A DNA stretch of 64,000 nucleotides from Pontederia crassipes. Taxonomy: Eukaryota > Streptophyta > Magnoliopsida > Commelinales > Pontederiaceae. Below are positions 30,751-64,000 of the stretch, piece after piece. The notes under the pieces were generated by a model. It made no database searches. It saw only the letters and a program-made list of their open reading frames with translations, and had not been told where the DNA came from. Where the stretch lies: assembly GCA_030549335.1 (NCBI GenBank), contig CM060194.1, positions 59,114,547 to 59,178,546 on the forward strand, given 5' to 3'. The first letter of the stretch is position 1. Each line of letters starts with the position of its first letter. The translations under genes were made by a program, and so were the position numbers.

Positions 30751-30759
30751 ACCATTGAA

Positions 30760-31116
30760 TTATTTACCAATCAGGTGCAAACTTTCATTGTGCTGCTCCT
30801 GTATCATGCAGCATTGTGAAGAGAAAACAATGGAACAGTGCAGGTCCTTGGTTAGTTGAGAAACTGCTATCAGATTGTACTTGAATTCAGGTATATAAAA
30901 AACTTCTGACAACACTTTTTTAAACCCTATATTAAGAGTTCCTTTGTGTGTCACTGATACTCTACTGCCATTGGGTAAAACCACTATCCTTTTTACAGGT
31001 AATTTCACAATATTATCAAGATTACATAAACTAGAAGACATATGCTGAGATGCCTCGGTATCCAGAATCCAAGGATTATTGTTTATAGGCAAAGAAAGAC
31101 TTGTCATACCTGCCAT
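30760..31116 (-). pseudogene. Copia protease region, broken
   Basis: WILDTEASQHMSSSLCNL corresponds to the copia aspartic protease active-site region, followed by VVLPNGSRVSVTHKGT and VFYIPEFKYNLIAVSQL, both characteristic of copia protease. Confidence 0.85.
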
Positions 31117-31179
31117 GTGCAGATTATTATCCTGATTGATTTTGAGATCTTTCTCAATTTTCTTGAGTATGAACTGATA

Positions 31180-42518: not shown

Positions 42519-42865
42519 ATTCTCTACCTTGAATTGAATCCTACAATCAGATATCTAACACTCTCTGCCGCCGCCAATCCCTATTCTGATTTTTCACAGC
42601 CTTGCCAGACACCCTATGACGAAGTTCACGAGTATGTAGACTCGATCTTACTTCTTTCAGAGTAATTATGTCTCTTCCGATGATAATAGATTGTACGAAA
42701 TTTCCGTACGACAGAGGAAGAGACACCAACAAAAATAGGGCAGCATGTTCATCCTCAATCTTCACATATATATTTCGTCCAGTAAATTTCTCGACGTTGA
42801 CGTTGTGCGATGCCATCTCTACGCCTGAGGAGGATCGATGATGAAGCCTCGCTCTGATACCAGTT
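42519..42865 (-). pseudogene. Internal segment 1 with gag remnant
   Basis: The minus strand shows MASHNVNVEKFTGRN and EDEHAALFLLVSLPLSYGNF, GRDIITLKEVRSSLHTREL, the conserved late part of copia gag. Nothing of protease, integrase or RT remains. The primer site lies at the right end (plus 42852-42863). Confidence 0.75.
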
Positions 42866-43532
42866 TGTTATAATTTTTCTGCACGAGAGAAATTACGCAT
42901 CGCGAGAAAACCCGAGAAATTTAAGGCGGCACAGAATTGTATTAGATGGAAGAAACAGAAGAGGATTACAAGATCAGATTGATTCAGGATTATCCAGAAT
43001 GGTCTTACAAGTCTTGATTACAAGTCCTTTTATAGGGCCTTGGAGAAACAACTCCTACTCTAACTTAATGACCTAATCCTACTAGGCATGTAAGCCCCTT
43101 CTCTAGAAAAACCTCCTTGGACTAGGAGTAGAAATCTGACTTCCTGAAGATCCTTGAAGATCTCGACTAACTTGAATTCCTCTCTGGAATCAAATTGGGT
43201 CGGGCGCCCACCTGGCGCCCGCCACGTCCGGGCGCGCCCTGGTTGTCCAGTCCGAGTCCCACTCGGACTGGGACTCCTCCAGGCGCTCCTACTATCTTCA
43301 AATCTTCCTTCACGTCCAGACTCCATATCCAAGTGCTCCTCGGTCCAGAAGGGAGCTCGGCCCTTCAAAAATTCGTCATGTTCTTCTCGACATCGAAAAC
43401 CGGCCGACTCCTATTCCTACTAGGAGTAGGAATCCTTCCGACCCTGCACTTCTCGTCCAAACATCTCTCGAAGTCTCTCTATTACTTCTTTGGATCCAAA
43501 CAGATTTTCAGTTAAAGTAGGATTCAAGGCAT
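42866..43532 (-). repeat. LTR 2 (middle) of the copia array
   Basis: Nearly identical to LTR 1 and LTR 3 along its length, starting TGTTATAATTTTTCTGCACG. It includes the same CCAGTCCGAGT hairpin. Confidence 0.88.
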
Positions 43533-43697
43533 TTCCGTACGACAGAGGAAGAGACACCAACAAAAATAGGGCAGCATCTTCATCCTCAAGCTTCACATAT
43601 ATATTTCGTCCAGTAAATTTCTCGACGTTGACGTTGTGCGATGCCATCTCTACGCCTGACGGAGGATCGATGATGAAGCCTCGCTCTGATACCAGTT
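43533..43697 (-). pseudogene. Internal segment 2 with shorter gag remnant
   Basis: A second, shorter copy of the internal region, sharing MASHNVNVEKFTGRN and ALFLLVSLPLSYGN with segment 1, and the CTGGTATCAGAGC primer site at the right end. Confidence 0.75.
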
Positions 43698-44373
43698 TGT
43701 TAGGATTTTTCTGCACGAGAGAAATTACGCATTGCGAGAAAATCCGAGAAATTTAAGGCGGCACAGAATTATATTAGATGGAAGAAACAGAAGAGGATTA
43801 CAAGATCAGATTGATCCAGGATTATCCAGGATGGTCTTATAAGTCTTGATTACAAGTTCTTTTATAGGGCCTTGGAGAAACAACTCCTACTCTAACTTAA
43901 GGACCTAATCCTACTAGGCATGTAAGCCCCTTCTCTACAAAAACCTCCTTGAACTAGGAGTAGAAATCTGACTTCCTGAAGACCCTTGAAGATCTCGGCA
44001 AACTTGAATTCCTCTTTGGAATCAAATTGGGTCGGGCGCCCACCTGGCGCCCGCCACGCCCGGGCGCGCCCTGGCTGTCTAGTCCGAGTCCCACTCGGAC
44101 TGGGAATCCTCCAGGCGCCCCTGCTGTCTTCAAGTCTTCCTCCACGTCCAGACTCCATATCCAAGTGCTCCTCGGTCCAGAAGGGAGCTCGGCCCTCCAA
44201 GAATCCGCCACATCCTTCTCGACATTGGAAATTGGCCGACTCCTATTCCTACTAGGAGTAGGAATCCTTCCGACCTTGCACTTCTCGTCCAAGTATCTCT
44301 CGAAGTCTCTCTATTACTTCTTTGGATCCAAACAGATTTCCAGTTAAAGTAGGATTCAAGGCATTATTTAATA
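43698..44373 (-). repeat. LTR 3 (right) of the copia array
   Basis: 676 bp, starting TGTTAGGATTTTTCTGCACG and ending GGCATTATTTAATA. It is followed by the right AGATA target copy. Confidence 0.88.
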
Positions 44374-44378
44374 AGATA

Positions 44379-44889: not shown

Positions 44890-45013
44890 GAATCTCAAAA
44901 CAGTGGAGTGCCATTTTCCTCCGTCATGACATTTTAATTTTCTACCTTGGGATTAGATGAACTTTGGGGCCGTTATAGTCAAGCCGAGAATTTGGGCCGC
45001 GCTGGATTTTTAT

Positions 45014-45872
45014 CAATGTTTTTAAAACCGGACTGGTCATCAAACCGATCGGCCAACTGGGTCATGGTTCGATCGGTTCGACCAGATTGAATTGAATTTT
45101 TATTAAAATAGTATTATGTTATTACTTTAGAATAACATATTACAAATAAAAGTATAAAAGGTAAAAAAATAATGAAATAAAAGTATATTAATCATCATTT
45201 TAAATTAATCAAATATTAATATTTTATTTTTACATTTTAAGAACATATATTGTTTATCATTAATTAATTTTATATTTAATTATTTAATAATTTCATGAAT
45301 ACCTTTTTTGTATTTCCATCACTATTATCTTGCCCTCATTTTATTTTTCAAATTCATATTTTCTTTCCATTATTATTTGATTTCTTGTATAAATTCATCC
45401 TATAAAATTTACTATATTATTATGTTTTCATTTTCATATTTTATTGTATAATATTTATAATAATTAAAATTTTGTCATCTTCTTATTTATGTTCATGATA
45501 ATTTTTTCAAATTTATATTTATTACTATCTTTCCAATTTCATTTCAAATTCAATTACTTTCCTTATTATTTACATTCATTTATTCTTTACAATCGAATCA
45601 CTTGTATTACTCCTCTTTTTATTATTCTAGATTTCCTATTATCATACACTTTCCTTCTTTTCTTTTTTTTCCATTTATTCACCTCTCTTAAATTGTTTTT
45701 GAAAAAACCGGATTGAACCGATTTTTTGGTTCAACCCGGTTTTGACCGAATTGACCCAGTTCACTATGGTTTTTTGCAAAAATGGTTTTTGTACACTAAC
45801 ATGACCGGACCGATGACCTGTTCGCGGTTGAACCGGTCAAACCGGCTGGACCGGTCCGATTTTAAAACACTA
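45014..45872. mobile_element. hAT non-autonomous element, CAATGTT type, copy B
   Basis: Starts CAATGTTTTTAAAACCGGAC and ends, inverted, TAGTGTTTTAAAATCGGACC. GGTTCGACC/GGTCGAACC-like arms flank an AT-rich core. Copy 2 of the duplication has the empty site (GTGCTCCGTTTTTTGTGAAAA near 60728-60748), where this copy reads GGATTTTTAT before and GTTTTTTACG after, a worn target duplication. 859 bp, no coding. Confidence 0.8.
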
Positions 45873-45952
45873 GTTTTTTACGTAAAATATAATGTGCTGC
45901 TCATATTTATAAGCCTCTTGTCACCGAGAAGATTATGTAATAATCTTTTGTA

Positions 45953-46501
45953 TAGAGCTAGACACGAGCTAGGCCGAGCTAGATTTCTATTTAAATAGGT
46001 CAACTCTATTACAAAATAAAAATATTTAAGTCTGTCCTATAACTTTTAACAAGTCATGAATATAAACTTAGCATGCATTATTTGATTAATTTTTAATATC
46101 TGGCCTAGCTTATTAGTCTGTTAAGTCAAATATATTTTTTTATGATCTACTAGATTAAATATAATAAATCTTAATTATTAAAAAAAATAGATATGAACTA
46201 AATAAAAGAGGCTTCACTAATATATTTCTTCTAAACATATAATAAAAATATTAATATTAAACTCAAAATTAAAGATTTAAAAGATAAAAGATTAAAAATT
46301 ATATATATAATATATTAATAAATTTTGACCTGATAAATTATAAGGATAGGTCAATTATTAAGAGGCTAAACTTCTTTAAGAAAATAGATTTTATTTAATA
46401 TTTCAGCCTGACTTATTTTGATAATATGTCGAGTCGAGGTAGGTCAAAAATAGGTCGAGCCACGAATTGCTCACGAACGGCTCGGCTCATTTCCAACCCT
46501 A
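45953..46501. mobile_element. hAT (Ac-like) non-autonomous element, TAGGG type, copy 2
   Basis: Perfect 8-bp duplication CTTTTGTA (45945-45952 and 46502-46509). Ends TAGAGCTAGACACGAG and, inverted, TAGGGTTGGAAATGAG. The empty site is seen in copy 2 of the duplication (ATCTTTTGTATAATAA near 61213-61228). It aligns over its length with the inverted element at 24060-24564. 549 bp, no coding. Confidence 0.88.
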
Positions 46502-46725
46502 CTTTTGTATAATAATTAGAAAGTCTATTTTATATAGGATTAACAGGGCACAAATAAATGCTTTATTTGATAACAACCATATTTGGCATTTGTCACATGG
46601 TGTGTTTGCAAGTCATGTCACCAAGCACTGTCTTAATTGAGTACAATCCAGTAATAAAATGGTTGACGTTATAGTTTAATTAACTTATTCGAGCATATTT
46701 CATGAGTTTAGATAACTCGAATTAA

Positions 46726-47997
46726 TCAAAGCTGGTCGCATTGTGCAGGCACGAAGGAGAGCATTCGGTTGTCGAGGTCGTAGAGTATGTGTATGTTCTC
46801 CTGCAAGCTATTTCCGATGATCGATCCATCCAAATCATCTGTTGGCCCAATTAGCAGGCACAGCGTGCCACTTTCTTCGCTTGCATACATGTAGTTCTTC
46901 TGCGGTACGGTCATGTCTGCCCCGTCTAGGTGGAGCGTCAGATCCGGCATGTCCGGAGGAGGCCAAGATGACACTTGGAAGCAGAGGTCATACCCGCTGC
47001 TATCGTTCACGACCGGCAGGTCCACTAGGGAGATGATTTCTTGCTTCAGGACGTCGTATCCCGACTTTTGAAGCCAAGTGAGGGAGCTACCTGAGTCGAT
47101 GATCGTTCCGCCGGTTCCATTTGCGTTGTACTGGAATGTCCCGTCCGGAATCGGCAGGAGAGTTGAACCAAGAGATATCCCTTGCAGAGAGATGTAGTAG
47201 TAACTCGTGTCACTGAGAAAGGGGGTGGATTGAACTGCACCTGTTGTGCTGCTCTCATTCAAGCTCGCCGATGGCCCCAGCAGTAGCAAGCTGTTAGTAG
47301 AGGTCATGCTGAGACAGTATGAGAACCTGCCCAAGTTCAGCTGCGAGATAAGAGACAGATCTCCTTGTCCCAGCCCCACGATGCTTTTATTTTCTTGGGC
47401 GCAGCCGAAGCCGATCTTGTTGACCGTGCTGTCGCCCAAGGTGAAAGTCTCGTATCCGAGATACCCCGTCGAGTTGGAATTGTCCGCGTAAGAGATGGTA
47501 TAGTTGCATTGGCCGGTGCTGCTGCACTTGGAGCTCGAACCGAGGGCTTGGCACAGAGGATCGTCGCAAGGGACCTGCAAGAAGGTGGAAGAATTTAATG
47601 GATCGTAGATGGATGTGTTCTGCGGATCGCACTGGTCGCAGGGCTGGCACTGCGTCCAGACGAGGGTGCTGCCTGTGTCCATCACAGCAGTGATGGGCGT
47701 CGGGGGCGTGCCGATTGTCAGTCGCATATAGTACTCAACAACGTTGCCGCCATAGAAGATTGGATCTTGGATATCAACGGTGGAGTCTGATCGTTTTGAT
47801 TGGACGAGCGCCATGCGGCGTTTGCTCCGGTCTGCGGCGCGCGCGGCGAGCTCCTCGACCGTCATATCATTGTTGTTAGAGTCGACGTGGGTGAGGCCGA
47901 TGCGAAAGGCTGCACTCGGAGGACATTGAACAAGAACAAGGAGAAGAACCAAGGGAAGAAGAAGAAGAAGATTATTATTTTCGGCCTCCATGCCCAT
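46726..47997 (-). CDS. Secreted nepenthesin/CDR1-like aspartic protease
   Basis: An intronless 423-residue pepsin-type (A1) endopeptidase. A hydrophobic signal peptide (about 10-30, LLLLLPLVLLLVLVQCPP) predicts secretion. A prosegment-like stretch follows (40-80). The first catalytic Asp is D107 in VMDTGSTLVW and the second D301 in IIDSGSSLTWL. The plant nepenthesin-type cysteine-rich insert is visible (C117, C120, C123, C144, C149, C158, C164), and the flap region ISYADNSNSTGYL (168-180) holds Y170. Length is slightly below the usual 430-460, partly because the loop between GFGC (196-199) and IVGLGQG (206-212) is short. Two in-frame starts (M1, M3) are possible. Members of this family act in defence signalling and extracellular proteolysis; the substrate is unknown. 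It is the intact member of a duplicated pair (see 61614-62291). Confidence 0.93.
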   Translation of the reverse strand: MGMEAENNNLLLLLPLVLLLVLVQCPPSAAFRIGLTHVDSNNNDMTVEELAARAADRSKRRMALVQSKRSDSTVDIQDPIFYGGNVVEYYMRLTIGTPPTPITAVMDTGSTLVWTQCQPCDQCDPQNTSIYDPLNSSTFLQVPCDDPLCQALGSSSKCSSTGQCNYTISYADNSNSTGYLGYETFTLGDSTVNKIGFGCAQENKSIVGLGQGDLSLISQLNLGRFSYCLSMTSTNSLLLLGPSASLNESSTTGAVQSTPFLSDTSYYYISLQGISLGSTLLPIPDGTFQYNANGTGGTIIDSGSSLTWLQKSGYDVLKQEIISLVDLPVVNDSSGYDLCFQVSSWPPPDMPDLTLHLDGADMTVPQKNYMYASEESGTLCLLIGPTDDLDGSIIGNSLQENIHILYDLDNRMLSFVPAQCDQL

Positions 47998-48063
47998 CTA
48001 ATCGATCGATCTTAGTTAACAAATATCCCCAGGATACATGCAGCATGTCTGGGGGTGCAACAC

Positions 48064-48073
48064 GTATATATAG
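48064..48073 (-). promoter_or_regulatory. TATA box of the aspartic protease gene
   Basis: The minus strand reads CTATATATAC about 67-76 bp upstream of the ATG at 47997, placing a start site near 48035 and leaving a 5' UTR of about 40 bases. An ACGTG core overlaps its downstream edge. Copy 2 of the duplication has lost this region. Confidence 0.65.
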
Positions 48074-48307
48074 ATGTGCAGAGAGTCAGATAGGGAAAGT
48101 GAAGCAAATTTTAAATACGAGAGTTTAAGAGGTCATCCTGAAGTTAAAATTGTTTTATTTGCCAAAGACTCGGTACTCCACTTATGCATACTAAATTAAA
48201 CAGGCAAATTGCGAATGTTACATATATTAATTTGGGAGAAGAAATCCTGCTACGTTTGACCAAATACTCAATTTTTAGCTACTGAAAACAACGTTAAATA
48301 GGCAGAT
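48074..48307 (-). promoter_or_regulatory. Upstream region of the protease gene, shared with copy 2
   Basis: The stretch from about 48150 (TTGTTTTATTTGCCAAAGAC) to the hAT element at 48308 is nearly identical to 62291-62442. The hAT element therefore sits about 240 bp upstream of the TATA box and may alter regulation. Confidence 0.55.
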
Positions 48308-49209
48308 CAATGTTTTAAAAGTAGGATCGGCATGTCGATAGAGTTAGACGGATTTTTATATAATAATATTATTTATAATTATTTAAGAGTAATTTAATAC
48401 ATAAATTATTACAAAAATAATTAAACCAATTAAATATTTTTTTACCGAATGTTAATTTAAATAATAGATTTCCTTTTATTACTAATATAATAATATAAAT
48501 TTAATTTCAATATAAATTTATTGCCGAATTTCATTCTCTTTTATTTTAGTAGTTTTGTTTTTATTATTACTAATATAATAACTTAATTTTAATTTTAATC
48601 TAAATTTATTACTAATATATTATTACCGAATTTTATTTTCTTTCCACATATATCTTTCTTTTTATTTAATTTGATTAATATTCTGTTTCTATTTTCTCTA
48701 ACCAAGAATTCAAGATCTTTCCTTTTATTTTCTTATTTTTATTTTTATTTTTTTCCTTTTTCTCTCCTTTCACTTTCACGTGCAATACTTTCCAATTTTA
48801 TAAAATTATTTAAACATTCATATCCCCTAATAAAAGCTTTTCATATTTTATTATTCTCTTAATAATATATTCCAATTTTTATTCATTCTCTCCGACTACC
48901 ATTTTTCTTTTATTTTTTATTTTAAATACTTTCCTTTTGTTTCTCCTTCAATTTTCATAATCTTTTAATTCTATCTAAAATAATTTGGTAACTTTAAACT
49001 TTAATATCTCCTAATAAATTATTTCAGTATATTTATATTTGAAAAAAATAAAAAATCGGGTTCAACCGATTCATCGGTTCGACCCGGCTTTTTCAATTTT
49101 TTTGAGCCAATTCGATTTTTATTATTTCCGATTTTACTAATGAATTCTATAATTATTCTTATCGGTTCGCGATCGGACCGATCGGTCCGAATTGATTTTT
49201 AAAATATTG
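48308..49209. mobile_element. hAT non-autonomous element, CAATGTT type, copy C
   Basis: Flanked by AGGCAGAT (48300-48307) and AGGCATAT (49210-49217), 7 of 8 identical. Ends CAATGTTTTAAAAGTAGG and, inverted, CAATATTTTAAAAATCAA. Copy 2 of the duplication has the uninterrupted site TAGGCAGATATATAGCCGG at about 62437-62455. 902 bp; the core is extremely AT-rich and the right arm holds CGGTTCGACCCGG-type motifs. Confidence 0.88.
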
Positions 49210-49928
49210 AGGCATATATATAGCCGATATTAAATATTTTATTTGTAGGTATTTTTTTATCGTTGACTGCATGACTATCGACTTCTGAAAGTCAAGGTCC
49301 ATGCTTTATCTTCATTATGTCATCTTTTTTTTTTTCAAACTCCATGCTTTACATATTCCGTATGCAATTTGCTCTCTCTTATTTTATATATATATATATA
49401 TATAAGCTTTTTGGGCCCTTGTCGAAAAGAAATAATAGTAACTTGGACATGACATATCAATACTTTATTAAATGAATCCGAGAGGGAAACGCGTTATGCA
49501 TCTGGTAAACGTTATTTGGACCTTTTTTTCATCACTTGACTTTAATACTTAATCTCCGTCCCTATCAAAGACCATATCGATTTTTTTAACTCGTGTTCTT
49601 TTTCACTCAAGTCATTGATCAAATTAAAAAATAGAATAATGTAAAATAAAAAATACGAAACTACATGAAATTTAATAAAAGGGATTGAAACAAAATTATA
49701 AAAGAAGAGGGTGCAGAATCTCCATATATAAAGTCTCAAATTGCTATGCATAAAATTGTCAAAATTTCGATGTTTTTATGATCTAGATGATGATATTATT
49801 ATAATTAAGCGTACATAATAGGATATTTAAGATCCTTATAATATCTTTTGAAAAACTCACGAGAGATCTTTACCATCCTTGTTAAAAGATACGTAGTAGA
49901 ACTTTTAAGCAATCAAAGGTCATATATA
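49210..49928. other. Distal upstream flank shared with copy 2
   Basis: Non-coding. It matches 62442-62560 and 63464-64000 (TGCATCTGGTAAACGTTATTT and similar). It has a (TA)n run near 49385-49404. The minus-strand frame at 49542-49751 has a counterpart in copy 2 (63697-63879) but no family motif; it is probably carried along in the duplication rather than a gene. Confidence 0.6.
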
Positions 49929-50257
49929 TGTTGAATAAGTGATCACAACGATCACCGCTGACTCCATAATCCGCGTGATCAGTTGTGCGCATGATCACAG
50001 CGTCGACGGTAAACGGCTGGCGGAATCCGTCATTATGAGCTAGTCGCGGATCGTGGAGGAATAATGACGACGGACACGTCGCCGGACGTTACGAGGCGCG
50101 GATCATGAAGGATCGCGCGACCTTCGGGCGTAACGGGCGCGGAACTTTGGGGACGAACGATCGTGAGCGAACGCTATAAATCAAGGTCGAGAACGACTGT
50201 CATCGGCACTTGTCGAAAGTCCCCAATCGCCTTTCATTTTTTCTTCGCCCTGCTTCA
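49929..50257 (+). repeat. 5' LTR of the plus-strand copia element
   Basis: 329 bp, TGTTGAATAAGTGATCAC ... CGCCCTGCTTCA. It holds several ATGATCAC/GCGTGATCA and CGGATCGTGG motifs and a TATA-like CGCTATAAATC near 50172. Confidence 0.92.
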
Positions 50258-51830
50258 TTGGTATCAAAGCTCTAGATCGGTGACTTCTGGTGAACTCTGT
50301 CGATCCTCTTCTTCCCGGTGCTGGTGTTCTTTCTGAAGCCCTTCCATTTTTCTACAGCGACGCCCGAAGGTACAAAGGTGTTCTCTACCGAGGATTCGTA
50401 AACCAATAGCGAATTCTAGTGAATCCTTCCCTTTCGGTGTCTTCAATCCGCTGCCGACGTCCATCAATCCCCGCTGCGAATGACTCGCAATTGACGCTGT
50501 CGGAATGTTTCCACATCCTTGGAGAGTCTTCTCCGACCGTTGATTGCGCCTTCGACGAGTCCCTTTCGGCATTCACCTCTTCCCCTATCACCTACGGTGA
50601 ACGGTACGCGCATATTTTAGATTTGTCTGGAGAAAACGAACAGTGACAATATGACTTAAAACTACTAGATTGCATCGTAACGAATCTGCACCGTTAATTT
50701 TTTTTTATTTTTGTGTGTGATCCGCGTCGCGCTGTTAATTCCTGATCGCATCATAACCCATCTGCGCCGTCAATATTTTTTTTGGCCTGATCTGCATGTT
50801 GTTTTTGCTTTATGTCATTGTTACATGGTTGATTAGATCGCCATCTGTTGCATGCTTATTAGATTACTGCATGCTGTTTCTTTTTTAGATCGCCATCTGT
50901 TGCGACATATTATTGCGCAGAAATAATAAACCTTTATTCTGCATATTTTTTTAAAAGGAAAATGTATATGTAGAGCACGTGGAATGAGTATAGAATATTA
51001 ATTTTACTTATTAAATTAATAAAATAATTATATATTATTTTGACGTATATATTAAATAGTAAAAGTGATTAAAATTAAGATTATCGAATTATTTGATCAT
51101 CGTGATCAAGTCATGTAAACCATATAATTAATTCAACGGTTATAATTTATTTAGCCTTAAATAATACATTTTATTATAAAATTGTCTAAATAAATATATA
51201 TTATTTCATCCAAAAAATATATAATCAATTTGATTATAAATTATAATCATTAAATTAATTAAATAATATGAAATAAGTGTTGTACACGGAAGTGTAGAAC
51301 GGAGTGCTATACGAAATCATTAACCTCTTTTTTAAACTAAGCCATTAATCATAATCTTGGTCTCGATAAGTATCAACTTTAGATTTATTATTTAGTTCAT
51401 TAAATCAGAATATCTGCACCAATAATTTTCTGATCCGCATACTATTATTGATATGCGCGACGCATGCTTGATTAGATCAGTTTTTATCATAGTTGCTAAA
51501 TATAATCTGTTAAATTTTTTTAACAATTGATCTGCATATTTTAAATCCTTGCCGTAAAAGGGGGTCATAATTATATTTTTATAATCATCAGAATAGTAAG
51601 AGGCCCATAATGCTTGCCTTATATTATCAGCTCGTGTAATTTCTGCGGGTCGCTGTTATTTGTCGTCGGCCTATATAATTCTTATCTTATTCTTATTTGT
51701 TTGAAATTTTATTATTTCTCATAAATTTATGTTCCTGGAATTTTTTATTTAATTTCTGTTATTTGTCGTCGGCCTATAAGATATGTTTATTTAATTTTTG
51801 CCTTGCGACATGATTTCGGTTCTGTTTTAG

Positions 51831-51882
<52 letters not shown>

Positions 51883-52340
51883 CGAAACTGAACCTGGAAT
51901 TTTTATATATACCGAAACTGAATCTGGAAATTTTCTGGGATTTCATTTTTTTAACATTAATATTTTTTATTCTGTTTTGAAATCATAAGGCATTACTATT
52001 ATTATTACTCTATTTTCTAATTAATACGTATAGTTATTACTTGTTCATAATTGTGAATCTATTTCATCAAAGCAATTTTTTTTTTAACTAAAACATTTCA
52101 TTTTAACAATTAGTCTATCGGTAAAATTACCTTGAAATAAGTACAAGACCACATTTCTATAAGTATTTATTTCAACGTAAGGCAATAAATTTTAAGTATT
52201 TTGCTTTATTTTTATTATTCAAAATATTTGTTCACTGAATCTTTTCGTGGAATTCTCTCTAACTCTCCTCAACTCTCAGTTTTTTTATTGGTACTAATAA
52301 TATTTTTTTGTGTTTTTTTAGAAAAAGCATCATTTAGCAA
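50258..52340 (+). other. Long untranslated leader of the copia element
   Basis: About 2.1 kb between primer site and gag, AT-rich after 50900, with two similar segments (CGCCATCTGTTGC at about 50839 and 50888; CTGTTATTTGTCGTCGGCCT at about 51652 and 51756). No coding seen. Confidence 0.7.
51834..51879. repeat. (TA)n microsatellite in the copia leader
   Basis: Uninterrupted TA run of about 46 bp. Confidence 0.9.
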
Positions 52341-53230
52341 AATGACTCACAAATTTATTGCTTATGAACTGGTCAAGATGGAACACCTAAATGACGTTAA
52401 TTATGATATGTGGAGCAGAAAGATTAAGTATGACTTGATGTATGACAATCTTGAACCAATAATTGACTCCCTTGCTTTTGTGCTTCCTCAAGAAGCTAAT
52501 GCTGAGCAAATAAGGGCTCATGAATAGTGGGAGGATAAAGACAGAAAATCAGATCTTTCGTACTGATGCATATGGAAGATCATTTGATTAGGGTCTTCGA
52601 AAATTATAAAAATGCTCATGACTTGTGGAATGCTATTAAAGAAAAGTATGATTCGAAAACTCAACCGAACATACAGCTCCTTCTTCATAAATATAATACT
52701 TGTAAAATGAAGGAAGATGAAAATGTCATAAAGCATGTAAATAAGATGATTGTCATGGCTAAAGATTTAGCCACTGCAGGATCTGCCTTACCTGAACCAC
52801 TACAGGTCTCTGTAGTGCTAAGTAGTCTTCCACCATCTTTTGACATGGCTGTCACCATACTGCGGCTTAATGGAATAGTTAAGTCGGTGACTGACCTACC
52901 AACCCAGCTAGCCATAGAACAAGATATGACAAAGAGCAGGAAGACAACAGAAGTTTTTGAAGCGGAGGATGCTGGAGATCCCGTTGAAGAAATTCATTCG
53001 GTGCACCATAGCAATAGCAAGAAACTTGGACTTGAAAAGAAGCAATTCAAGGAAAAGCACGGACGAAAGCCAGCTAAGGGCGCTTGCCATAACTGTGGGA
53101 AGTATGATCATTTTAGGGCCAATTGTCCTTCTAACAACAAGTCGGCAGGCCCAAGTAGGGCTTCGTCTAGGCAAAGCCAAAATAAGCCTGAACTTGCTGT
53201 AGTCGTCGAGTGTAATGCTGCGACGACGAA
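52341..53230 (+). pseudogene. Copia gag region, broken
   Basis: Starts MTHKFIAYELVKMEHLNDVN, then NYDMWSRKIKYDLMYDNL, LWNAIKEKYDSKTQPNIQLL, LQVSVVLSSLPPSFDMAVTI and a zinc knuckle CHNCGKYDHFRANCP near 53085-53130. This is a typical copia gag. Confidence 0.9.
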
Positions 53231-53239
53231 TATTAAAGG

Positions 53240-54345
53240 TTGGTGGATTGACTCTGGTGCCACCCGTCACATCTCCAAAACTATGGAAGGCATTGTTGAC
53301 TTCAAGAAAATGAAAGAAGGAGAACAAAGAATCTTCATGGGCAACAACACCTATCTAGACGTTAAGGGTGTTAGAACTTACAAATTCGTTCTGGAAGAAA
53401 GCATCACAATACTTCATGATGTACTATATGTCCTCGGAATTCGTAGAAATCTCATCTCTGTACCCGTCCTTCTGAAGAAGGATTTTGAAGTCAGATTTTA
53501 TAATGGTCGTGTATCCATAGGAAAGAACAGAAAGATCGTAGCTATGGGAAAGTTTGTCCCTGGGCACGATCTGTTCTGCCTTTCTACCGTGAATAATGAA
53601 TCTATGAATGTGATTTTTGAGTACTCTGTGTGTGTATCTAACTATGATTTATGGCATGAAAGACTTAGACATCCAGAAAAATCTAAAATGGAACAAATAA
53701 AGAAAATGAATTTAGTGCTCAACATAACAAATGCAAGTATAGCACCTTGTGAACATTACTTGATCGGAAAAATGGTTCGGAAATCCTTCCCAACCAGAAT
53801 TAGGTCAACGGAACTATTGGGACTAATTCATTCAAATATTTGTAGTCCATTGAGTGTCGCTACACACAACAAAAAAGAGTACTTCATAACATTCATAGAT
53901 GATTACTCCAAATTTTCCTATATTTTTTTCTTAAAAGAAAAGCTGAAGTTTTTGAAATATGTAAGAGATATAGGATGGAAGTGGAAAAAAACATTGGGAA
54001 GACCAATTAAAATATTAAGAACGGATAGAGGAGGTGAATATACCTCTCAAGAATTTGAGCAGGTATATATAGGCAGACTACAGTGCCTTATACGCCAAAA
54101 TAAAATGGTGTGGCAGAGAGAAAGAATAAATCCATTATGAATGCAATAAGGTGTATGTTGTCACACTTGGGACTCCCAAAGAGTTTTTGGGGCGAGGCAA
54201 TAGTGACTGCTAATTACATACAAAATAGAATTCCTACAAAATCCGTTGAATCCACGCCATACGAAATATGGAATGGCAAGAAGCCGGATCTAGGCCATTT
54301 TTCGAAAATGGGGATGCAAAGCGCATGTATTAATTCCTAATCAGC
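53240..54345 (+). pseudogene. Copia protease and integrase region, broken
   Basis: The protease site WWIDSGATRHIS is followed by LHDVLYVLGIRRNLISV. The pre-integrase motif LWHERLRHPEKSKMEQI comes next, then the integrase core (LLGLIHSNICSPLSVATHNK, YFITFIDDYSKFSYIFFL, ILRTDRGGEYTS) and MLSHLGLPKSFWGEAIVTAN. Confidence 0.9.
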
Positions 54346-54849
54346 TTAGAAACAAGCTGGATACAAGGACGATAACATGCAGGTTCATAGGATATAGTAA
54401 AAAATTCAAAGGATATAGATTCTTTCACAATGATAAAGACCTTATTGAGAGTCGAGATGCAGTTTTCCATGAGAAAGGAAAAGAAGTATTGCATGAAGAA
54501 AAGGACGATGAGCCTCTAATTATCCTTGGGGATAATGAAAATGACTCAGGACAAGGCACATTGGACATTAATCCAAAAGTGGGAGATGAATCTATGCATG
54601 ATAATATACCTTTAGGGAATGTGGAGGAACCCATACACTCCATGAGTATAACTGGCAACAAAAGGCCCAGGAATTGACCCGCACATTTGGATGATTATCT
54701 TCTGTACGAGTGCGAGGTGTCGTGCTACTCCGTGGACATAGACATAGAGGATTGTACAGATCCCATGTCTTACAAAGAAGCAATGACTTCTCAAGAGTCG
54801 GAATCATGAACGGCCGCCATGAGGGATGAATTGGACTCAATTAATCGTA

Positions 54850-56306
54850 ATGGAGTATGGGCATTATGTGATTTGTCGGAAGGTAGGCAATCCATAGGGT
54901 GCAAATAAATTTTCAGGAAAAAATACCGAGTTGACGGTACTATCGAAAAGCACAAAGCAAGACTTGTTGCAAAGGGTTATACTCAGAAAGCCGGAATATA
55001 TTTTTAAGAAACCTATTCTTCAGTAGCTAAATTTGCATCTATAAGGATCATTTTAGCGATAGTTGCATATATGGATCTGGAATTATTTCAGATGGATGTT
55101 AAAACTGCCTTCCTCAATGGGGATATGAGTGAAGACATATATATGCAACAACCTGATGGTTTTCAAGTGGAAGGTCAAGAGAATAAGGTATATAAACTGA
55201 AAAAATCATTATATGGCTTAAAACAATCATCACGTCAATGATATTTAAAGTTCCATATGACGGTAATCCAATTTGTCTTTATGACAAATGAATTGGATCA
55301 TTGTGTGTACATCAAGAAAGATGAGAGCAAATTTGTGATAATGTCACTGTATGTAGATGACATTTTGCTCGCCGAAAATGATGTTACGATGCTCAATCAG
55401 AAAAAAATTTGAGCAAAGAATTTGAAATGAAAGACATGGGAAATGCATCATATGTTCTCGAAATTCAAATTAATCGAGATCGAAGCTCAAGAACATTGAG
55501 TTTGACTCAAGAACAGTATTTGAAAGATACTAAAGAAATTTGGGATGCATAATTCCAGCCCTGTCCCAACATCACTTGTGAATGGGAAAAGGCTTAATAA
55601 AGGTCAGTGTTCTAATCCTGGACAAAAACCTTTGGAAGTTTCTTATGCACAAGCGGTGGGTAGTCTAATGTATGCCATGTTATGCATAAGACCTGATTTG
55701 ACTTATCATGTAAGCTTAGTTAGTAGATTTCAAAGTAATCTTGGAAAGGCGCATTAGGAAGCCATCAAGAGGATACTACGATATCTGAAAGGAACATTGC
55801 ATTTGAGGTTGACATACCAGACTGATACACTTGAACTTGTAGACTATGAAAATGCTGATTTTGGTGGAGACATTGATGATCGAAAATTCACATCAGGTCA
55901 CTTGTTCATGTTGGATGGTGCAGCTATTTCTTGGGAAAGCAAGAAACAAGGGTGTGTAGCTAGACACACACAGGAAGCTGAATACATTGCCTATAGTATG
56001 GCAGCCACTCACGGAGTATGGATCAAACGTTTTCTTATGGAACTAAAGCTCGATCTGGCAAATGGGCCAATGCTCATGTTTTGTGATAATCAAGTTGCAA
56101 TAAGCTTGATAAACAGTGAAGCAAATAGTTCCAAAGAAAAATATATTGAAATAGAATATCACTATATTCAAGATATAGTGGAAAAGAAGAAAGTAGCAGT
56201 GACCTACATGCCTACAAGTGACATGTTGACTGATTCTCTTACAAAGGGAATTCCGACTGGAACATTCATTAAACATGTTGGTTTAATGGGACTTAGAAAT
56301 AACTGA
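54850..56306 (+). pseudogene. Copia RT and RNase H region, broken
   Basis: RT signatures: KHKARLVAKGYTQKAG, FQMDVKTAFLNGDMSEDIYM, KLKKSLYGLKQSS and catalytic YVDDILLAEN. RNase H signatures: YAQAVGSLMYAMLCIRPDLT, SWESKKQGCVARHTQEAEYI and TYMPTSDMLTDSLTKGIP. These motifs resemble the Tork/Tnt1 type, but the lineage is an inference. Confidence 0.88.
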
Positions 56307-56419
56307 GCTAAGATAAAATTTTCACAAATAGTGAACTTTAAAAAAAATGACATATCCATATGGCACTACACGAATAGTGGGAGTGTTGAAAATAATGATC
56401 GTTGTGGTCAAGTGGGAGA

Positions 56420-56745
56420 TGTTGAATAAGTGACCACAACGATCACTGCTGACTCCACAATCCGCGTGATCACCGGCTTCGACGGTAAACTACTGGCGGA
56501 ATCCGTCATTAAGAGCCAGTCGCGGATCGTGGAGGAATAATGACGACGGACACATCGCCGGACGTTACGAGGCACGGATCATGAAGGATCGCGCGACCTT
56601 CGGACGTTGTCGGCGGGCGTAAAGGGAGCGGAACTTTGGGGACGAATGATCGTGGGCGAGCGCTATAAATTAAGGTCGAGGACGACCGTCATTGACACCT
56701 GTTGGAAGTCTCCAATCGCTTTCATTTTTTCTTCGCCCTGCTTCA
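56420..56745 (+). repeat. 3' LTR of the plus-strand copia element
   Basis: 326 bp, TGTTGAATAAGTGACCAC ... CGCCCTGCTTCA, followed by ATATA. It aligns along its length with 49929-50257. Confidence 0.92.
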
Positions 56746-56750
56746 ATATA

Positions 56751-58340
56751 TAAACTGTAAATATGATCTGAAAACCAAGAGAACACTGATTTGATCATAA
56801 ATGAAACTTGAAGCAAAAACCTAACATCAGATAAGAACATGATTTCAAGTTTGACGCTAAGTAAATGATTCCAATGTTGCTATTCGAGAGAGCATTCAAT
56901 ATTGTTTCACAGCTCAAGCTTCCCATTCAGAGCTTAGTCTACTTAAACCTATTGTCTAATTGATTGATGCCAGGGAACAACAAAGTCGAACATACTTTTT
57001 ACTTTGTTTTCGTTTGGTTAATTAATTTCGTTCCATATAAATATTCATGTTGGCATGTGAATTTGTATTCTACTTTTAACTAATTATTAAGTTGAGTTCT
57101 AACTCAATTGAATATTTCAATGAACTATTAATTCCTACTCAATCATGATCACAACCGGGAGAGAAACACACAGAGAGTGAATATCTAATCTCGTAAATTC
57201 AAGATAATATCCAATATTATGAATTCGACATTGCTAATTCATGATGATTGATAATTTAAAACTCTTGGATATCGGTCTAAGTCTTCTCAATTAGAATTTA
57301 CGTTATTTATTTCTTTGAAAAATATAGTTTTTTTTTAGTAAGGTTCTAAAGAGGGTTGCGTTTTGAATATCATATACGTACACTCATTCCAATGTCAAGT
57401 TTTCTAAGAGTTAGTTGAAATTGACCTTGTTATTTTTCTTGACATGCATCTTTCAATTTTGGAAAGTGGGGTTGGTGGAGTTTAGTCACTGATCTTTCAC
57501 TATCAGTTGATTTATTTATTTTCTCAAATGACATAATTAAATGTTGAATAAGTGGCAATTGACTATACACTACTAAGATATATACCTCTTGATTTACAAA
57601 GTTGCTAACACAAGATAAAACTTTTCTAATTGATGATGTAAGCTCCTCATCAATTGTGATACATGACATCACAAAAGAGATTTGATTATCCATTAGAAAT
57701 TAAGTCCAGTAGAAGATATGTCCCCATGTCAACGTGTGCCCCGTATTTTACTCGGACATAAATGTTGATTCGATTTCAGACCAAAAAAGTTGGAGCATTC
57801 ATGAACGCGTACGTTGATCCCTAGAGAAGATAAAAGTGACGCCCTCAGCGTTAATAGTTTAACCCATGAGAAATTATGTTCATAAAAATAATAAAAAAAA
57901 ACATGGTGTTTGGATGAGAATTTTTCATGAGAACAAAGCGAAGTGCATGCAATCAAACAGCAAATAAAATTCTCATTGGGTCCAATGAAATTTAAGTTTC
58001 AGTGAACGCAAATAATTCTCGATTCAAACTTTGAAGTTACGATGGTCAGACACGTTATGGAGTCCGCTTACTATCTAATCAATTTCCAAAATTCTTCATC
58101 TTCATAACTTTGGTCCAAACAGTTTGTGATAACAAAAATATCTATTCCAAAAATTACCGAGAACTCATCACAATTTTAGTTCTAATATCCAAATAGGTCC
58201 ACTAATCATTCGGATCAAGTCAGATAGAGAAAACTAAGTTGGGAGAGATATTGAAGATTAAATTGAATTTCTTGATGTTATCATTGAAAAATATAAGAAC
58301 TGGATTATGTCATGAAAAAAATATAAGATTTGAATGTAAT
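56751..58340. other. Intergenic DNA, no gene recognised
   Basis: AT-rich. A minus-strand 87-residue frame (57430-57693, MDNQISFVMSCITIDEEL) and a 75-residue frame (57729-57956) have no motif I recognise. They could be relics of a host exon but are not supported as genes. 57895-58020 (GGTGTTTGGATGAGAA) is MITE-like in style. Confidence 0.4.
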
Positions 58341-58348
58341 CAAAATAC

Positions 58349-58928
58349 CAATGTTATAAGACCCGACCCGACCGTCGACTCGGATTGATCAACAGGTCAG
58401 GTCGGACCGGTTGGACTGGGTCTAATCAAATGGTCGGACCGGATAATATAAATTAATAAAAGAATAAAATAAGTTAAAGAGATTGTTATAATTTTATTAA
58501 TATATAATATCTTATTTAAAAAAAATATAAAATATAGTAAAATAAAGTAAAATAATATAATGCAGATTAAATAATATAATAAATTAACATAAATTAATTT
58601 ATCAACATAAATAAAAAATTCTTTGAGGTAATTATAAATAAAAAATAATGAAAAAATTATATATGTGACAAGAGGACATTAAAATATAAATTTCATGAAA
58701 TATATATATAATATGTCTAAATGTTTTAATAATTTTATTTATGTTTTAATTTTTTTATTTCAACAATTGACTCGGCCAGATCGGTTAAACCCGCCGGGTC
58801 GGCTTGTTGAACTCGAATTTTGACCGGGTCAAAATGGGTCAAACCCGTCCCCGGGTTTCGACTGACCCGCGGGCCATTTTAGTCCCCGGACACCGGTTCG
58901 ACCGGCCGGGCCGGGTCTGACAACCATG
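58349..58928. mobile_element. hAT non-autonomous element, CAATGTT type, copy D
   Basis: Perfect 8-bp target duplication CAAAATAC (58341-58348 and 58929-58936). Ends CAATGTTATAAGACCCGACC and, inverted, CATGGTTGTCAGACCCGGCC. GC-rich arms (GGTCAGGTCGGACCGG; GGTTCGACCGGCCGG) surround an AT-rich core. 580 bp, no coding. Confidence 0.92.
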
Positions 58929-58959
58929 CAAAATACATCCGAACTGATGACCGATCATG

Positions 58960-60347
58960 CACTACAAGAAAATTGCTATTTTTCGACGGACAATTTCTGA
59001 TGGTTTGAAATCCGTCGCAATTTGTGACGGATTTTGCGACGGTTTAATTTTCGATGGATTTTCTGACGGTTACAACCGTCGGAAATAAAAATAATAGATT
59101 ATGTAATTTATTATATTATTGTTTTATTTTTCAACATTTAGGAACGTCGATATTTCTGACGTGTATCCATCCATCATAATTTTCGACGAATTTTTCGACG
59201 ATTACGACCGTCGAAAATATAAATAATAAATTATGTAATTTGTTATATTATTATTTTATTTTTTGACATTTAGGAACGTCAATATTTCCGACGGATATCC
59301 ATCCGTCGCAATTTGCGACGAATTTTCCGACGGTTACGACCGTCAGAAATGAAAAAATAAATTATATAATTTGTTATATTATTATTAAATTTTTTGACGA
59401 TTAGGAACATCGATATTTCCGACGGATATTCATCTGTCGCAATTTCCGACGGTCGTAACAATCGGTAAATGTATAATAATATCATATGAGGAGTATTTTA
59501 TTAATATAATTAGCGATGGTTCAAACCGTCGCAATTATCGACGATTTCGATCATCAATAATAATTACCGATAGTTCAAACCGTCGATAAAATAAAAAATA
59601 AATATTATATATAACTAAATATTTTTTCGACGGTCACAACCGTCGGTAACTTTAAAAATAATTAATATTTACGTTTTCGACGGTCGGAGCCGTCGGTAAT
59701 TAAAATTTTGTTATCCTATTTTTTTTCGTTTTGTCGATTTTTCTCATCTTTTCCCCTATATATATATATATATAACACCTCAATTTTATTTCCTCCTCTC
59801 CTCTCTCTCTCTCCCTCTCCCTCTCCCTCTCCCGGCTGGCGAGCCTCTGGCCAGACGTCAAGCGTTGACCGCCAGCGACCCTCTTCCGCCGGAGTCTCTC
59901 TCTTTCTCTCCGGCCGCTGGCGGAAGGATCCGGCCTCTTGGCGGCCGGATCTGGCCGTCCGGCCGCGGGCGTTCGGATCGGGCCCCCAGCGGTCAGGTCC
60001 TGCCGTCCACGGCAGGATCCGACCGCGGCCGGATCCGGACGCTAATTTTTTTATTTCTAAAAAATTCTTTGCGACGGTTTTCACCTTCGAAAGATCGATT
60101 GTTGCGACGACCATCGAAAGTATCGACAGTTGCGATTGTCAAAAACTTTTGACGGTTCGAACCGCCGATATTTTTCGGATGGTTAGAACCGTCGATATTT
60201 TCGACGAAATTTTTTTTACCGTCGCAAATCGATTTGCGACGACCGTTTTAAGACGGATTCGATCCGTTTGAAAAACCGTCGGTAATTGCATTACCGACGG
60301 TTTTTGGATTGATTAACCGTCAAGTAATCAGCGTTTTTCTTGTAGTG
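58960..60347. mobile_element. CACTA (En/Spm) non-autonomous element, copy 2
   Basis: Perfect ends CACTACAAGAAAA and TTTTTCTTGTAGTG with a perfect 3-bp duplication ATG (58957-58959 and 60348-60350). It has numerous CCGTCG/CGACGG subterminal motifs in both orientations, a (TA)n run near 59757-59774, a CT-rich tract, then a GC-rich segment (about 59830-60045). It has the same design as the element at 25377-26568. There is no transposase; the open frames at 59708-60271 cross the low-complexity and GC-rich parts and lack a family motif. Confidence 0.95.
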
Positions 60348-60350
60348 ATG

Positions 60351-60618
60351 GAGCATGACTCTAGGGAATTTGAAAGTCCTTAGAAATATTGTCTTTTGTC
60401 TATTTTGTTTTGGAAATGTCCTTTTGACAAAGTTACTTGAGATTGTTTTTCTATACCTTTGTGAATGAAAATGTTGCATGTTGGATATTAATATTGAGTT
60501 GAATATTATAATAATGCTGAATTTGAAATTTAATATTTTGAATGTAAATGAGTTTGAATGCTATAAAATGAAATAGCCTCTTCTTAAAGAAAAAAATAGC
60601 AACTGGGTTGAACCTTTT
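60351..60618. other. Spacer, no gene seen
   Basis: Non-coding AT-rich DNA between the CACTA element and the start of duplication copy 2. Confidence 0.5.
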
Positions 60619-60802
60619 GAATCTCAGAGTAGTGGAGTGACATTTTCCTACGTCATGACATTCTATTTTTCTACCTTGGATTAGATGGGCTTTTGGGCTG
60701 AGATAGTTAAGCCGAGAATTTGGGTCGTGCTCCGTTTTTTGTGAAAATTATAATGGAAATTTTGCTAATATTTATAAGCCTCTTGTCACTGAGAAGATCA
60801 TT

Positions 60803-61197
60803 TAGGGATGTTGACCGAAACGAATCGACCTGTGAACTTCACCAGGGTCATGTATGAATTGAAAATTTTCAATCCGAGTCGATCCAATCTGATCTATTTT
60901 TTTTTATTTTTTATTCTTGTATTTAAATGTAAGGTTATATTTGATTTATTTTTTAAAAAAATAAAACAGTATAAGTACAGAAATAATATTATAGTTAGAA
61001 AATTTATTTATACTTTAAAATAAATATTAAATAATATTTTTATATTAAATAAACATAAATAGTAAGAAAAAAATAAAAAAATAGTGATCGAGGTAGGTCA
61101 AATTTAGCCCCCAAAACCTTCTTGACACGACTTGAATAATTTAAATCAGGTCGGGTCCAATTTATTCACACTCCAACCCGACCCGTGAAGACTCCTA
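60803..61197. mobile_element. hAT (Ac-like) non-autonomous element, TAGGG type, copy 3
   Basis: Starts TAGGGATGTTGACCGAAACG and ends, inverted, TAGGAGTCTTCACGGGTCGG. Flanking 8-mers AGATCATT and GGATTATG are worn versions of AGATTATG, which is the uninterrupted sequence in copy 1 near 45930-45937. 395 bp, AT-rich core. The inner sequence does not resemble the 45953-46501 family, so it is a separate subfamily with similar ends. Confidence 0.8.
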
Positions 61198-61225
61198 GGA
61201 TTATGTAACCATCTTTTGTATAATA

Positions 61226-61411
61226 ATAATTAGAATCGCTATTTAGCGGGGTCTAAAGTTACTATCACTCGACTAATGTTCGGGTGGGCGTGGTAGGAAT
61301 AAAGTCTGGCCAAAGTGGTGAATCTAAAAATTGAAGCTCAGGCTACTAGCACACACGGTAATTCAAGACACAACCCTGCTATCGGATTTGTGCCGGCCAT
61401 CTTTGATTTTT
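61226..61411. other. Unclassified insertion of about 185 bp in duplication copy 2
   Basis: Present here but absent from copy 1, where TAATTAGAAAGTCTATTTTATA is continuous. The insert (ATCGCTATTTAGCGGGGTC ... GCCGGCCATCTTTGATTTTT) has a small dyad GCTATTTAGC near its left end. Neither SINE boxes nor TIRs are clear. Confidence 0.5.
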
Positions 61412-61613
61412 GAAAGGCTATTTTATATAGGATTAACATGGCACAAATAAATGCTTTATTTGATAACAACATATTTGACATTTGTCACATGGTGTGTTTG
61501 CAAGTTATGTCACCAAGCACTGTCTTAATTGAGTACAATCCCGTAATAAAATGGTTGGCGTTATAGTTTAATCAACTTATTCGTGCATATTTCATGAGTT
61601 TAGATAACTCGAA

Positions 61614-62291
61614 TCAAAGCTGGTCGCATTGTGCAGGCACGAAGGAGAGCATTCGGTTGTCGAGGTCGTAGAGTATGTGTATGTTCTCCTGCAAGTAATT
61701 TCCGATGATCGACCTATACGAATCATCATCTACTGGATCCATTAGCAGGCACAGCGTGCCACTTTCCTGGTCTGCATACATGTAGTTCTTCTGCGGTACG
61801 GTCATGTCTGCCCCGTCTAAGTGGAGCGTCAGATCCGGCATGTCCGGAGGAGGCCAAGATGACACTTGGAAGCAGAGGTCATACCCGCTGCTGTCGTTCA
61901 CGACCGGCAGGTCCACCAGGGAGATGATTTCTTGCTTCAGGACGTCGTATCCCGACTTATGAAGGTAAGTGCGCGAGCTACCTGAGTCGATAATCGTTCC
62001 GCCGGTACCATCTGCGTTGTTCTGGAACGTCCCGTTCGGGATCGGCAGGAGAGTTGCACCAAGAGATATCCATTGCAGAGAGATGTAGTACAGGGAGTAC
62101 CCCGGGACACTGAGAAAGGGGGTGGATTGAACTGCACCTGTTGTGCTGCTCCCACTCAAGCTCGCCGATGGCCCCAGCAGTAGCAAGCTGCTATTAGAGG
62201 TCATGCTGAGACAGTATGAGAACCTCCCCAAGTTCGGCTGCGAGATAAGAGACAGATTTCCTTGTCCCATCCCCACGACGCCTTCATTGTT
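61614..62291 (-). pseudogene. Aspartic protease paralogue, 5'-truncated
   Basis: It keeps the last half of the protease at 46726-47997 with few changes: GMGQGNLSLISQPNLGRFSY, the second catalytic site IIDSGSSRTYL, CFQVSSWPPPDMPDLTLHL, and the C-terminus FVPAQCDQL. The signal peptide, prosegment, first catalytic Asp, cysteine-rich insert and the proximal promoter including the TATA box are missing. Homology passes from gene (corresponding to about 47385) to upstream DNA (about 48150) within an ATT/TTTTATTT microhomology near 62288-62300. With no first Asp it cannot be a working protease. A 221-codon open frame remains, starting at an internal Met. Confidence 0.92.
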
Positions 62292-62564
62292 TTATTTGCC
62301 AAAGACTCATTACTCCACTTATGCATACTAAATTAAACAGGCAAATTGCGAATGTTACATATATTAATTTGGGAGAAGAAATCCTGCTACATTTAACCAG
62401 AGACTCGTGTTTTTAGCTGCTGAAAACTACGTTAAATAGGCAGATATATAGCCGGTATTAAATATTTTATTTGTAGGTAATTTTTTATCGTTGACTACAT
62501 GACCATCGAGTTCTAAAAGTCAAACTCCATGCTTTATCTTCATTGTGTCATCTTTTGTCCTTTT

Positions 62565-63463
62565 TTTATTTCCTCCGACTACCCCTCAACTATCGTTATT
62601 TTTCACATCTAATTTCAAATTACGAACTTCATTTTTTGAATCCTTAAACTTTTACGATTTTTTCAATTTGATCATTCCGTACAATACCGTCAACTTCTTC
62701 GTTATTTTTTTTGCATTTGTGAAAAGTTCATTATACCTCTTCCTTAAGTGTTAATCTATTTTTATATAAAATAATATATAATAATAAATATAAAAATAAT
62801 TTAAAAAATAGCCACGTGTGGGGGGCCCCCTCTGCTCGTCGGACGTCGTAGAACGCAGGGAAGGAGGAGGGGGTGACCGCCCTCCCTGAGACCTCCGACG
62901 AGGTCACAAGGAGGGGGGCGACCCCCACCCCCGCACCGCGCGAGCGCAGGGAAGGAGGGGGGTCGCCCCCTTTCCTACGACCTCCGACGAGGTCATAGAG
63001 AGGTGGGAGACCTCCCCACCCCCTACGTCGAGCGCAGGGAAGGAGGGAGTCGCTCCCCTCCCTACGACTCTGGGCGACCTCCACACCCCATGCGCCGACC
63101 CCCTTCCTGCGACCTCGTCGGAGGTCGCAGGAAGTGGGGCAACCCCGTCGTCGACGCGGATGGGGGGGTGGCTGTGGTCCGGCCCCCCCCCTCCCTCCGG
63201 TGACACGTGATCATTTTTTATAATTATTTTTATTTTTATTATTATATATTATTTTATGTAAAAATAGACTAACACTTAAGAAATGAGTATAACGAATTTT
63301 TTACAAATACGAAAAATAAAAAATAATAGAGAAGTTGACGGAATTTGACGGAAGAATCAAATTAAAAAAATCGTGATAATTTAAGGACCCAAAAAATGAA
63401 GTTCGTAGTTTGAAATTAGATATAAAAAATCACAATAATTTATGAGTGGTTAGAGAAAATAAA
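62565..63463. mobile_element. Foldback/MULE-like element with 250-bp inverted arms and GC-rich core
   Basis: The arms 62565-62822 and 63200-63463 are inverted copies (shared blocks ACGAACTTCATTTTTTG, CCGTCAACTTCT, TTAAGTGTTA.TCTATTTTTA and CACGTGT). Flanks are CTTTTTTT on both sides, and copy 1 of the duplication has the empty site (about 49325-49345), so insertion occurred after duplication. The core (62823-63199) is very GC-rich with repeated GACCTCCGACGAGGTC motifs and no recognisable protein. Non-autonomous. Confidence 0.85.
62823..63199. repeat. GC-rich core with palindromic GACCTC-GTCG-GAGGTC units
   Basis: GACCTCCGACGAGGTC-type units occur at about 62891, 62981 and, as a perfect 14-bp stem hairpin with a 4-base loop, 63103-63134. 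GGGAAGGAGG-like motifs recur between them. Overlapping open frames on both strands are compositional artefacts. Confidence 0.75.
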
Positions 63464-64000
63464 CTTTTTTTTTCAAACTCCATTCTTTACATATTGCGTA
63501 TGCAATTTTCTTTCTATTATTATATATTAGCTTTTTGGGCCCTTATCGAAAAGAAATAATAGTAACTTGGACATGACATATCAATACTTTATGAAATGCA
63601 TCCAAGAGGGAAGCGCGTTATACATCTGGTAAACGTTATTTGGACCTTTTTTTTCATCACTTAACTTTAATACTTAATCTCCGTCCCTATCAAAGACTAT
63701 ATCAATTTTTTTAACTCGTGTTCTTTTTCACTCGTGTCATTGATCAAATTAAAAAATAGAAGAATGTATAATAAAAAATACGAAACTACATGAAGTTTAA
63801 TAAAAGGGATTGAAACAAAATTATAAAAGAAGAGGGTGCAGAATCTCCATATATAAAAGGGTCTCAAATTGCTATGCATAAAATTGTCAAAATTCGATGT
63901 TTTAATGATCTAGACGATGATATTATTATAATTAAGCTCACGAGAGATCTTTACCATGCTTGTTAAAAGATACGCGTGTTAAATTTTGTAGAACTTTTAA
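63464..64000. other. Distal flank of duplication copy 2
   Basis: Non-coding. It matches 49335-49908 closely (CTCACGAGAGATCTTTACCA, TACATCTGGTAAACG). The short minus-strand frame here is a duplicate of the one in copy 1 and has no recognisable function. Confidence 0.6.

Follow-up and report, generated by a model that had tools for sequence, protein, structure and literature searches.

Within the DNA of Pontederia crassipes analyzed here, an aspartic protease gene lies in a segment that is present twice in direct orientation, and the two copies of this segment differ by six insertions, three found only in copy 1 and three only in copy 2, each facing an empty partner site in the other copy. We consider it highly probable that the segment was duplicated directly, perhaps in tandem, and that insertions then entered each copy separately. 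The window is the whole stretch of 64,000 nucleotides that was analyzed (NCBI GenBank assembly GCA_030549335.1, contig CM060194.1, positions 59,114,547 to 59,178,546 of the forward strand), and its features are collected in Table 1.

Table 1 Features of the duplicated protease locus, in window positions, with the matching gaps of the global alignment.
Feature	Position	Strand	Details	Alignment gap (length)
Copy 1 of the duplicated segment	44890-49928		up to the copia insertion; aligned as far as 49908	
hAT-like element, 859 bp	45014-45872		copy 1 only; no long ORF; ends CAATGTTTTTAAAA / TAGTGTTTTAAAA	45004-45870 (867 bp)
hAT-like element, 549 bp	45953-46501		copy 1 only; duplication CTTTTGTA, 8/8	45955-46508 (554 bp)
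Aspartic protease ORF	46726-47997	-	copy 1; 423 aa, uninterrupted	
760-bp stretch	47388-48147		copy 1 only; start and 5′ half of the protease gene	
hAT-like element, 902 bp	48308-49209		copy 1 only; ends CAATGTTTTAAAA / CAATATTTTAAAA	48306-49215 (910 bp)
46-bp difference	49810-49855		copy 1 only	49810-49855 (46 bp)
Copia retrotransposon	49929-56745	+	right of copy 1; 6.8 kb; duplication ATATA/ATATA	
CACTA-ended element	58960-60347		between the copies; CACTACAAGAAAA at both ends; duplication ATG/ATG	
Copy 2 of the duplicated segment	60619-64000		cut by the window end	
hAT-like element, 395 bp	60803-61197		copy 2 only; ends TAGGGATG / TAGGAGTC	60796-61198 (403 bp)
Unclassified insert, 164 bp	61245-61408		copy 2 only; imperfect 15-bp flanking direct repeat	61233-61411 (179 bp)
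Truncated protease	61614-62291	-	copy 2; matches only aa 203-423 of copy 1	
Long-hairpin element, 899 bp	62565-63463		copy 2 only; GC-rich repeated center, in a T-run	62555-63464 (910 bp)

The direct repeat of 44890-49908 and 60619-64000 described in the initial annotation proved real and accurately placed, both in a BLAST self-comparison of the window, accompanied by a low-stringency comparison, and in a global alignment that penalized long gaps separately. The main BLAST blocks were 84-95% identical (best E-value 0.0), and in the self-comparison and the low-stringency comparison collinear direct matches chained 44890-49893 with 60619-63974. The global alignment gave one chain, in which 49908 is the base paired with 64000, the window end, so that the right end of the repeat does not come into view. 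The copies differed by 126 mismatches over 1861 aligned columns (93.2% identity, K2P 0.071); the alignment itself counts 1862 columns, one of which is a chance match outside the left edge. At the left edge, homology stops: a sensitive search of the 1001 bp left of copy 1 against the 2485-bp spacer found the two unrelated. One match in that search, among 32 rows up to E 10, fell below E 0.05 (46 bp, 72%, E 0.02); it was not accepted as extended homology.

An assembly artefact, in which two haplotypes of one locus were set end to end, could produce a similar picture: transposon content can vary between haplotypes in outcrossing plants, and what follows copy 2 on the right is cut off by the window end. 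In our judgement, however, the two copies differ a great deal for alleles (126 mismatches over 1861 columns, the six insertions, and the truncation of a gene), and the sequences to the left of the two copies are unrelated, which makes such an artefact improbable. If the duplication we favor was tandem, a layout that the two copies possibly have, the unit would be 44890-60618 (~15.7 kb including the insertions).

Divergence varied along the segment, with K2P values of 0.159 in the left flank (113 columns), 0.071 in the 3′ flank (296 columns), 0.073 in the coding stretch that copy 2 retains (662 columns), 0.079 in the 5′ flank (269 columns), and 0.048 in the right part (521 columns). Compared with shuffles, the mismatches were clumped (p 0.0002 overall; 0.01 for the part starting at 46509), and identical runs between the copies reached up to 111 (p 0.038 overall; 0.09 for that part). 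This clumping makes one clock for the whole segment doubtful, and gene conversion or uneven constraint is possible. The only other related stretch found in the window, 90 bp at 15555-15644, was considered as a third protease copy for polarizing the events and set aside as too short.

Of the long gaps in the global alignment, six coincide with the six insertions, as had been proposed, and two more are the 760-bp and 46-bp differences, both filled in copy 1. For the six insertions, the length by which each gap exceeds its element is 8, 5, and 8 bp for those filled in copy 1 and 8, 15, and 11 bp for those filled in copy 2 (both in the order of Table 1). Five of the six element bounds are those of the initial annotation; those of the 164-bp insert were set in the present analysis. 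If a partner site was never occupied, gap and element should differ by the length of the target duplication. The gap is longer by exactly 8 bp, the length of the hAT target duplication, for three of the four hAT-like elements, and the 5 bp of the fourth (45953-46501) is 8 minus one AAT unit, by which copy 2 was seen by eye to be longer beside the site. The empty sites hold one target each, with no remnant of a second and no visible footprint, whereas departure by cut and paste usually leaves one.

These observations bear on whether some of the elements might pre-date the duplication and have been cleanly lost from one copy. hAT elements do move by cut and paste and can leave a site, and it would take an outgroup to polarize the direction of each difference. 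Empty sites of exactly one target length in three of the four hAT-like elements, with the fourth agreeing bar one AAT unit, argue against such losses, as does the number of clean losses required, six, which is less likely than an equal number of gains, and we regard prior presence as very improbable. The six differences would thus be gains made separately after duplication. Copy 1 would have acquired its three hAT-like elements once the protease segment had been duplicated in direct orientation, and copy 2 would have acquired a single hAT-like element, the long-hairpin Mutator/foldback-like element, and the 164-bp insert.

Of the insertion chronology initially read from this locus, one part is well supported, namely that as a set the six post-date the duplication. 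No order can be given among them, since they are not nested in one another and short elements occurring singly are not datable here. The loading of both copies does appear independent, as had been claimed. Its description as rapid finds no calibrated clock behind it, only the divergence of the copies (K2P 0.071), and the 164-bp insert is not recognizable as a transposon.

hAT elements are characterized by an 8-bp target duplication and short inverted ends. These features, which are the marks of non-autonomous hAT elements, are found in the four elements beginning at 45014, 45953, 48308, and 60803, which we take from their ends to belong to this superfamily. The terminal inverted repeats are clear in the pairs CAATGTTTTTAAAA / TAGTGTTTTAAAA and CAATGTTTTAAAA / CAATATTTTAAAA and weak in the pairs TAGAGCTA / TAGGGTTG and TAGGGATG / TAGGAGTC. 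Each flanking repeat was compared with 20,000 random pairs of the same spacing. The CTTTTGTA duplication of the 549-bp element, alike at all eight positions, was equaled by a fraction of 0.0001 of the random pairs, and that of the 902-bp element (AGGCAGAT/AGGCATAT, 7/8), which sits 310 bp upstream of the protease ATG, by 0.00095. The flanking 8-mers of the 859-bp and 395-bp elements were alike at five of eight positions (in register for the former), a likeness equaled by 3.97% and 4.6% of the random pairs, respectively; since the letters agree only to this extent, the 8-bp duplication of these two elements is read from the gap length.

A relative of the 549-bp element lies elsewhere in the window, at 24060-24564, in inverse orientation and 83-84% alike. 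It is flanked by AGATTGTG/AGAGTGTG; with the end set at 24562 instead, the flanks are alike at 4/8. Non-autonomous hAT elements, including hAT MITEs, are known from plants, for example, as Brassica nigra families (PMC7385995). Compared with plant hAT MITEs, the four elements described here measure 395-902 bp and were placed by their ends and target length, not by a family match.

Copy 1 has a hAT-like element beginning 124 bp from its left edge, which raises the question of whether hAT ends made the duplication itself through reversed-ends transposition, as in maize Ac; duplications via hAT ends are known from maize (PMC3744419). By eye, however, no hAT terminus was seen at 60618/60619 or at 44889/44890, and copy 2 lacks the element near the edge, which is hence later than the duplication. 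We regard this route as extremely improbable, and the duplication followed by separate insertions is retained as the preferred reading.

The arms of the long-hairpin element, 62565-62819 and 63203-63463 (255 and 261 bp), are inverted repeats 82% alike, flanking a GC-rich center with an 89-bp repeat; over its full length, the element matches its reverse complement at 68%. Long inverted repeats are a mark of Mutator/foldback elements, and the insertion is presumably Mutator/foldback-like. A 9-bp duplication was alike at 6/9 or 5/9 positions, depending on which of two bound choices was used, and the surplus is 11 bp, not a clean 9; the T-run at the site makes the target duplication impossible to bound.

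For the 164-bp insert, the flanking repeat agrees at 12 of 15 positions, which 0.00025 of the random pairs equaled, an optimistic figure as the bounds were set after seeing the letters. The insert had no Rfam match, and a search of the window at E 0.01 gave no second copy. Either a retroposon or filler DNA left by staggered-break repair would account for it.

The protease of copy 1 carries its catalytic motifs DTG at aa 107 and DSG at aa 301 and matches the Pfam domains TAXi_N (8.4e-44, aa 89-241), TAXi_C (2.2e-30), and Asp (6.1e-26), so that both TAXi domains and both catalytic aspartate motifs are present. Its best match among 47 PDB sequences was a pepsin (1am5_A, E 2.7e-8), and no nepenthesin was among the 47 matched; from its domain make-up, we assume it to be of the nepenthesin type, the TAXi domains pointing to a plant protein. 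It has TAXi_N, TAXi_C, DTG, and DSG in common with plant aspartic proteases of the nepenthesin kind, and it differs from them in that one copy is cut down to the C-terminal half. That copy, in copy 2, keeps the DSG and a TAXi_C match (1.4e-30), while the start of the copy 1 protein and the DTG are absent and TAXi_N scores 26.3 bits, below the cut-off of 30.

The truncation corresponds to the 760-bp stretch, which codes for aa 1-203 and hence for most of the TAXi_N match. Because it completes a domain, we take this stretch to be ancestral, and the difference is best explained by a deletion from copy 2; a shared ATT at the junction was noted by eye. Copy 2 would then have lost ~760 bp, and with them the start of the protease and the first catalytic aspartate; the frame in copy 1 stayed uninterrupted. 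Over the 221 codons of the retained coding part, 38 changes were non-synonymous and 13 synonymous, which gave an omega of 0.89 (bootstrap 0.51-1.83), a range that shows neither constraint nor its absence. Two indels in the shared coding part, of 3 and 6 bp, are both in frame. Plant aspartic protease genes of the nepenthesin kind often occur in duplicated groups. Tandem duplication is mentioned five times each in PMC8875628 and PMC6591973.

On the ancestral coordinates, which run to 2667 and have the gene at 410-1681, the six insertion sites fall at 113, 173, 197, 207, 1989, and 2100. Four of the six lie within 94 bp (p 0.015) and three within 34 bp (p 0.033), under a null of uniform placement over 1395 non-coding positions and with a statistic that was picked after the positions were known and is hence weak. 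The 94 bp of ancestral sequence received two insertions per copy, of at least two kinds. That the 3′ flank of the protease gene drew insertions as a hot spot, independently in the two copies, seems rather unlikely; if true, it would indicate a local target property, beyond mere tolerance of insertions.

The use of element-less paralogous sequence to demonstrate movement follows the logic of RESites (Related to Empty Sites), applied to Medicago PIF/Harbinger elements in PMC2213677, where Le et al. are credited. Relative to the RESites used there, the present locus offers six pairs in one duplicated locus, three per direction and mostly hAT-like. Paralogous empty sites are an established tool, the kind of thing seen here is already known, and it alters no general view; the locus resembles what plant genome evolution ordinarily yields, in a well-preserved state. 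Its interest is as a teaching case, in which six filled/empty pairs in a ~2.7-kb ancestral segment bound element families of the genome, and a duplicate gene is seen losing half its coding sequence as its flanks fill with insertions.

The analysis also brought out items beyond those listed in the initial annotation, namely the 760-bp and 46-bp differences, the copia retrotransposon, and the CACTA-ended element. The copia element has LTRs of the form TG...CA, a 5-bp duplication, and copia-type gag and integrase, as found in Ty1/copia elements. Its frame at 52539-54137 matched Retrotran_gag_2 (2.6e-21), Pol_BBD (7.8e-17), and gag_pre-integrs (1.4e-9), with rve (4.6e-7) below its cut-off, and the frame at 55758-56303 had no Pfam match. 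As ATATA stands on both sides of the element, a repeat equaled by 0.0014 of the random pairs, copy 1 very likely resumes at 56746.

This element may be a seventh post-duplication case. Its LTRs differ by 20 transitions and 6 transversions in 312 columns (K2P 0.090; the 84% LTR identity of the self-comparison counts gaps), and the non-coding parts of the duplication differ by 43 transitions and 37 transversions in 1199 columns (K2P 0.070). The two divergences do not give an order of copia insertion and duplication (Fisher p 0.32 when all changes are counted and 0.34 when only transversions are). The partner site in copy 2 would start 20 bases past the window end. If copy 2 resembles copy 1 there, the sequence beyond 64000 should read GCAATCAAAGGTCATATATA, followed by the copia element if it was inserted before the duplication or directly by TAAACTGTAAATATGATCTG if it was inserted afterward. 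On the tandem model, sequence resembling 56751-58959 and 60348-60618 would also be expected there. The element between the copies has the CACTA ends and 3-bp duplication of CACTA elements.

The aspartic protease gene of the two direct-repeat copies is represented once more in the window by a 90-bp piece of the same family, lying on the opposite strand and covering the final 28 codons and the stop (89% likeness to copy 1 and 91% to copy 2). The rest of the gene was searched for around this piece by sequence comparison within the window, and none was found.

The middle of the AT-rich hairpin element of copy 2 is GC-rich, contains internal repeats with an 89-bp unit and could be captured sequence. 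Left of copy 1, a unit of about 0.8-1.0 kb occurs three times in direct orientation, with a mutual likeness of 92-95% by window self-comparison; its reading frames look like putative retroelement gag pieces.

A further copia-type element is split over several frames, two of which were searched against Pfam, one matching RVT_2 (6e-69) and the other gag. Outside this element, a frame at 839-1264 matches zf-RVT (Pfam, 8.8e-21) and is probably a non-LTR retroelement remnant. The second CACTA-ended element carries the motif with one mismatch at either end and is about 73% alike to the one between the copies (window self-comparison).

Coordinates of the features in the window
Feature	Positions	Strand
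zf-RVT frame	839-1264	
Protease piece	15555-15644	
Second CACTA-ended element	25377-26568	
Copia-type element	28409-31953	-
Threefold repeat	41843-44374	
First CACTA-ended element	58960-60347	
Hairpin centre	62820-63200
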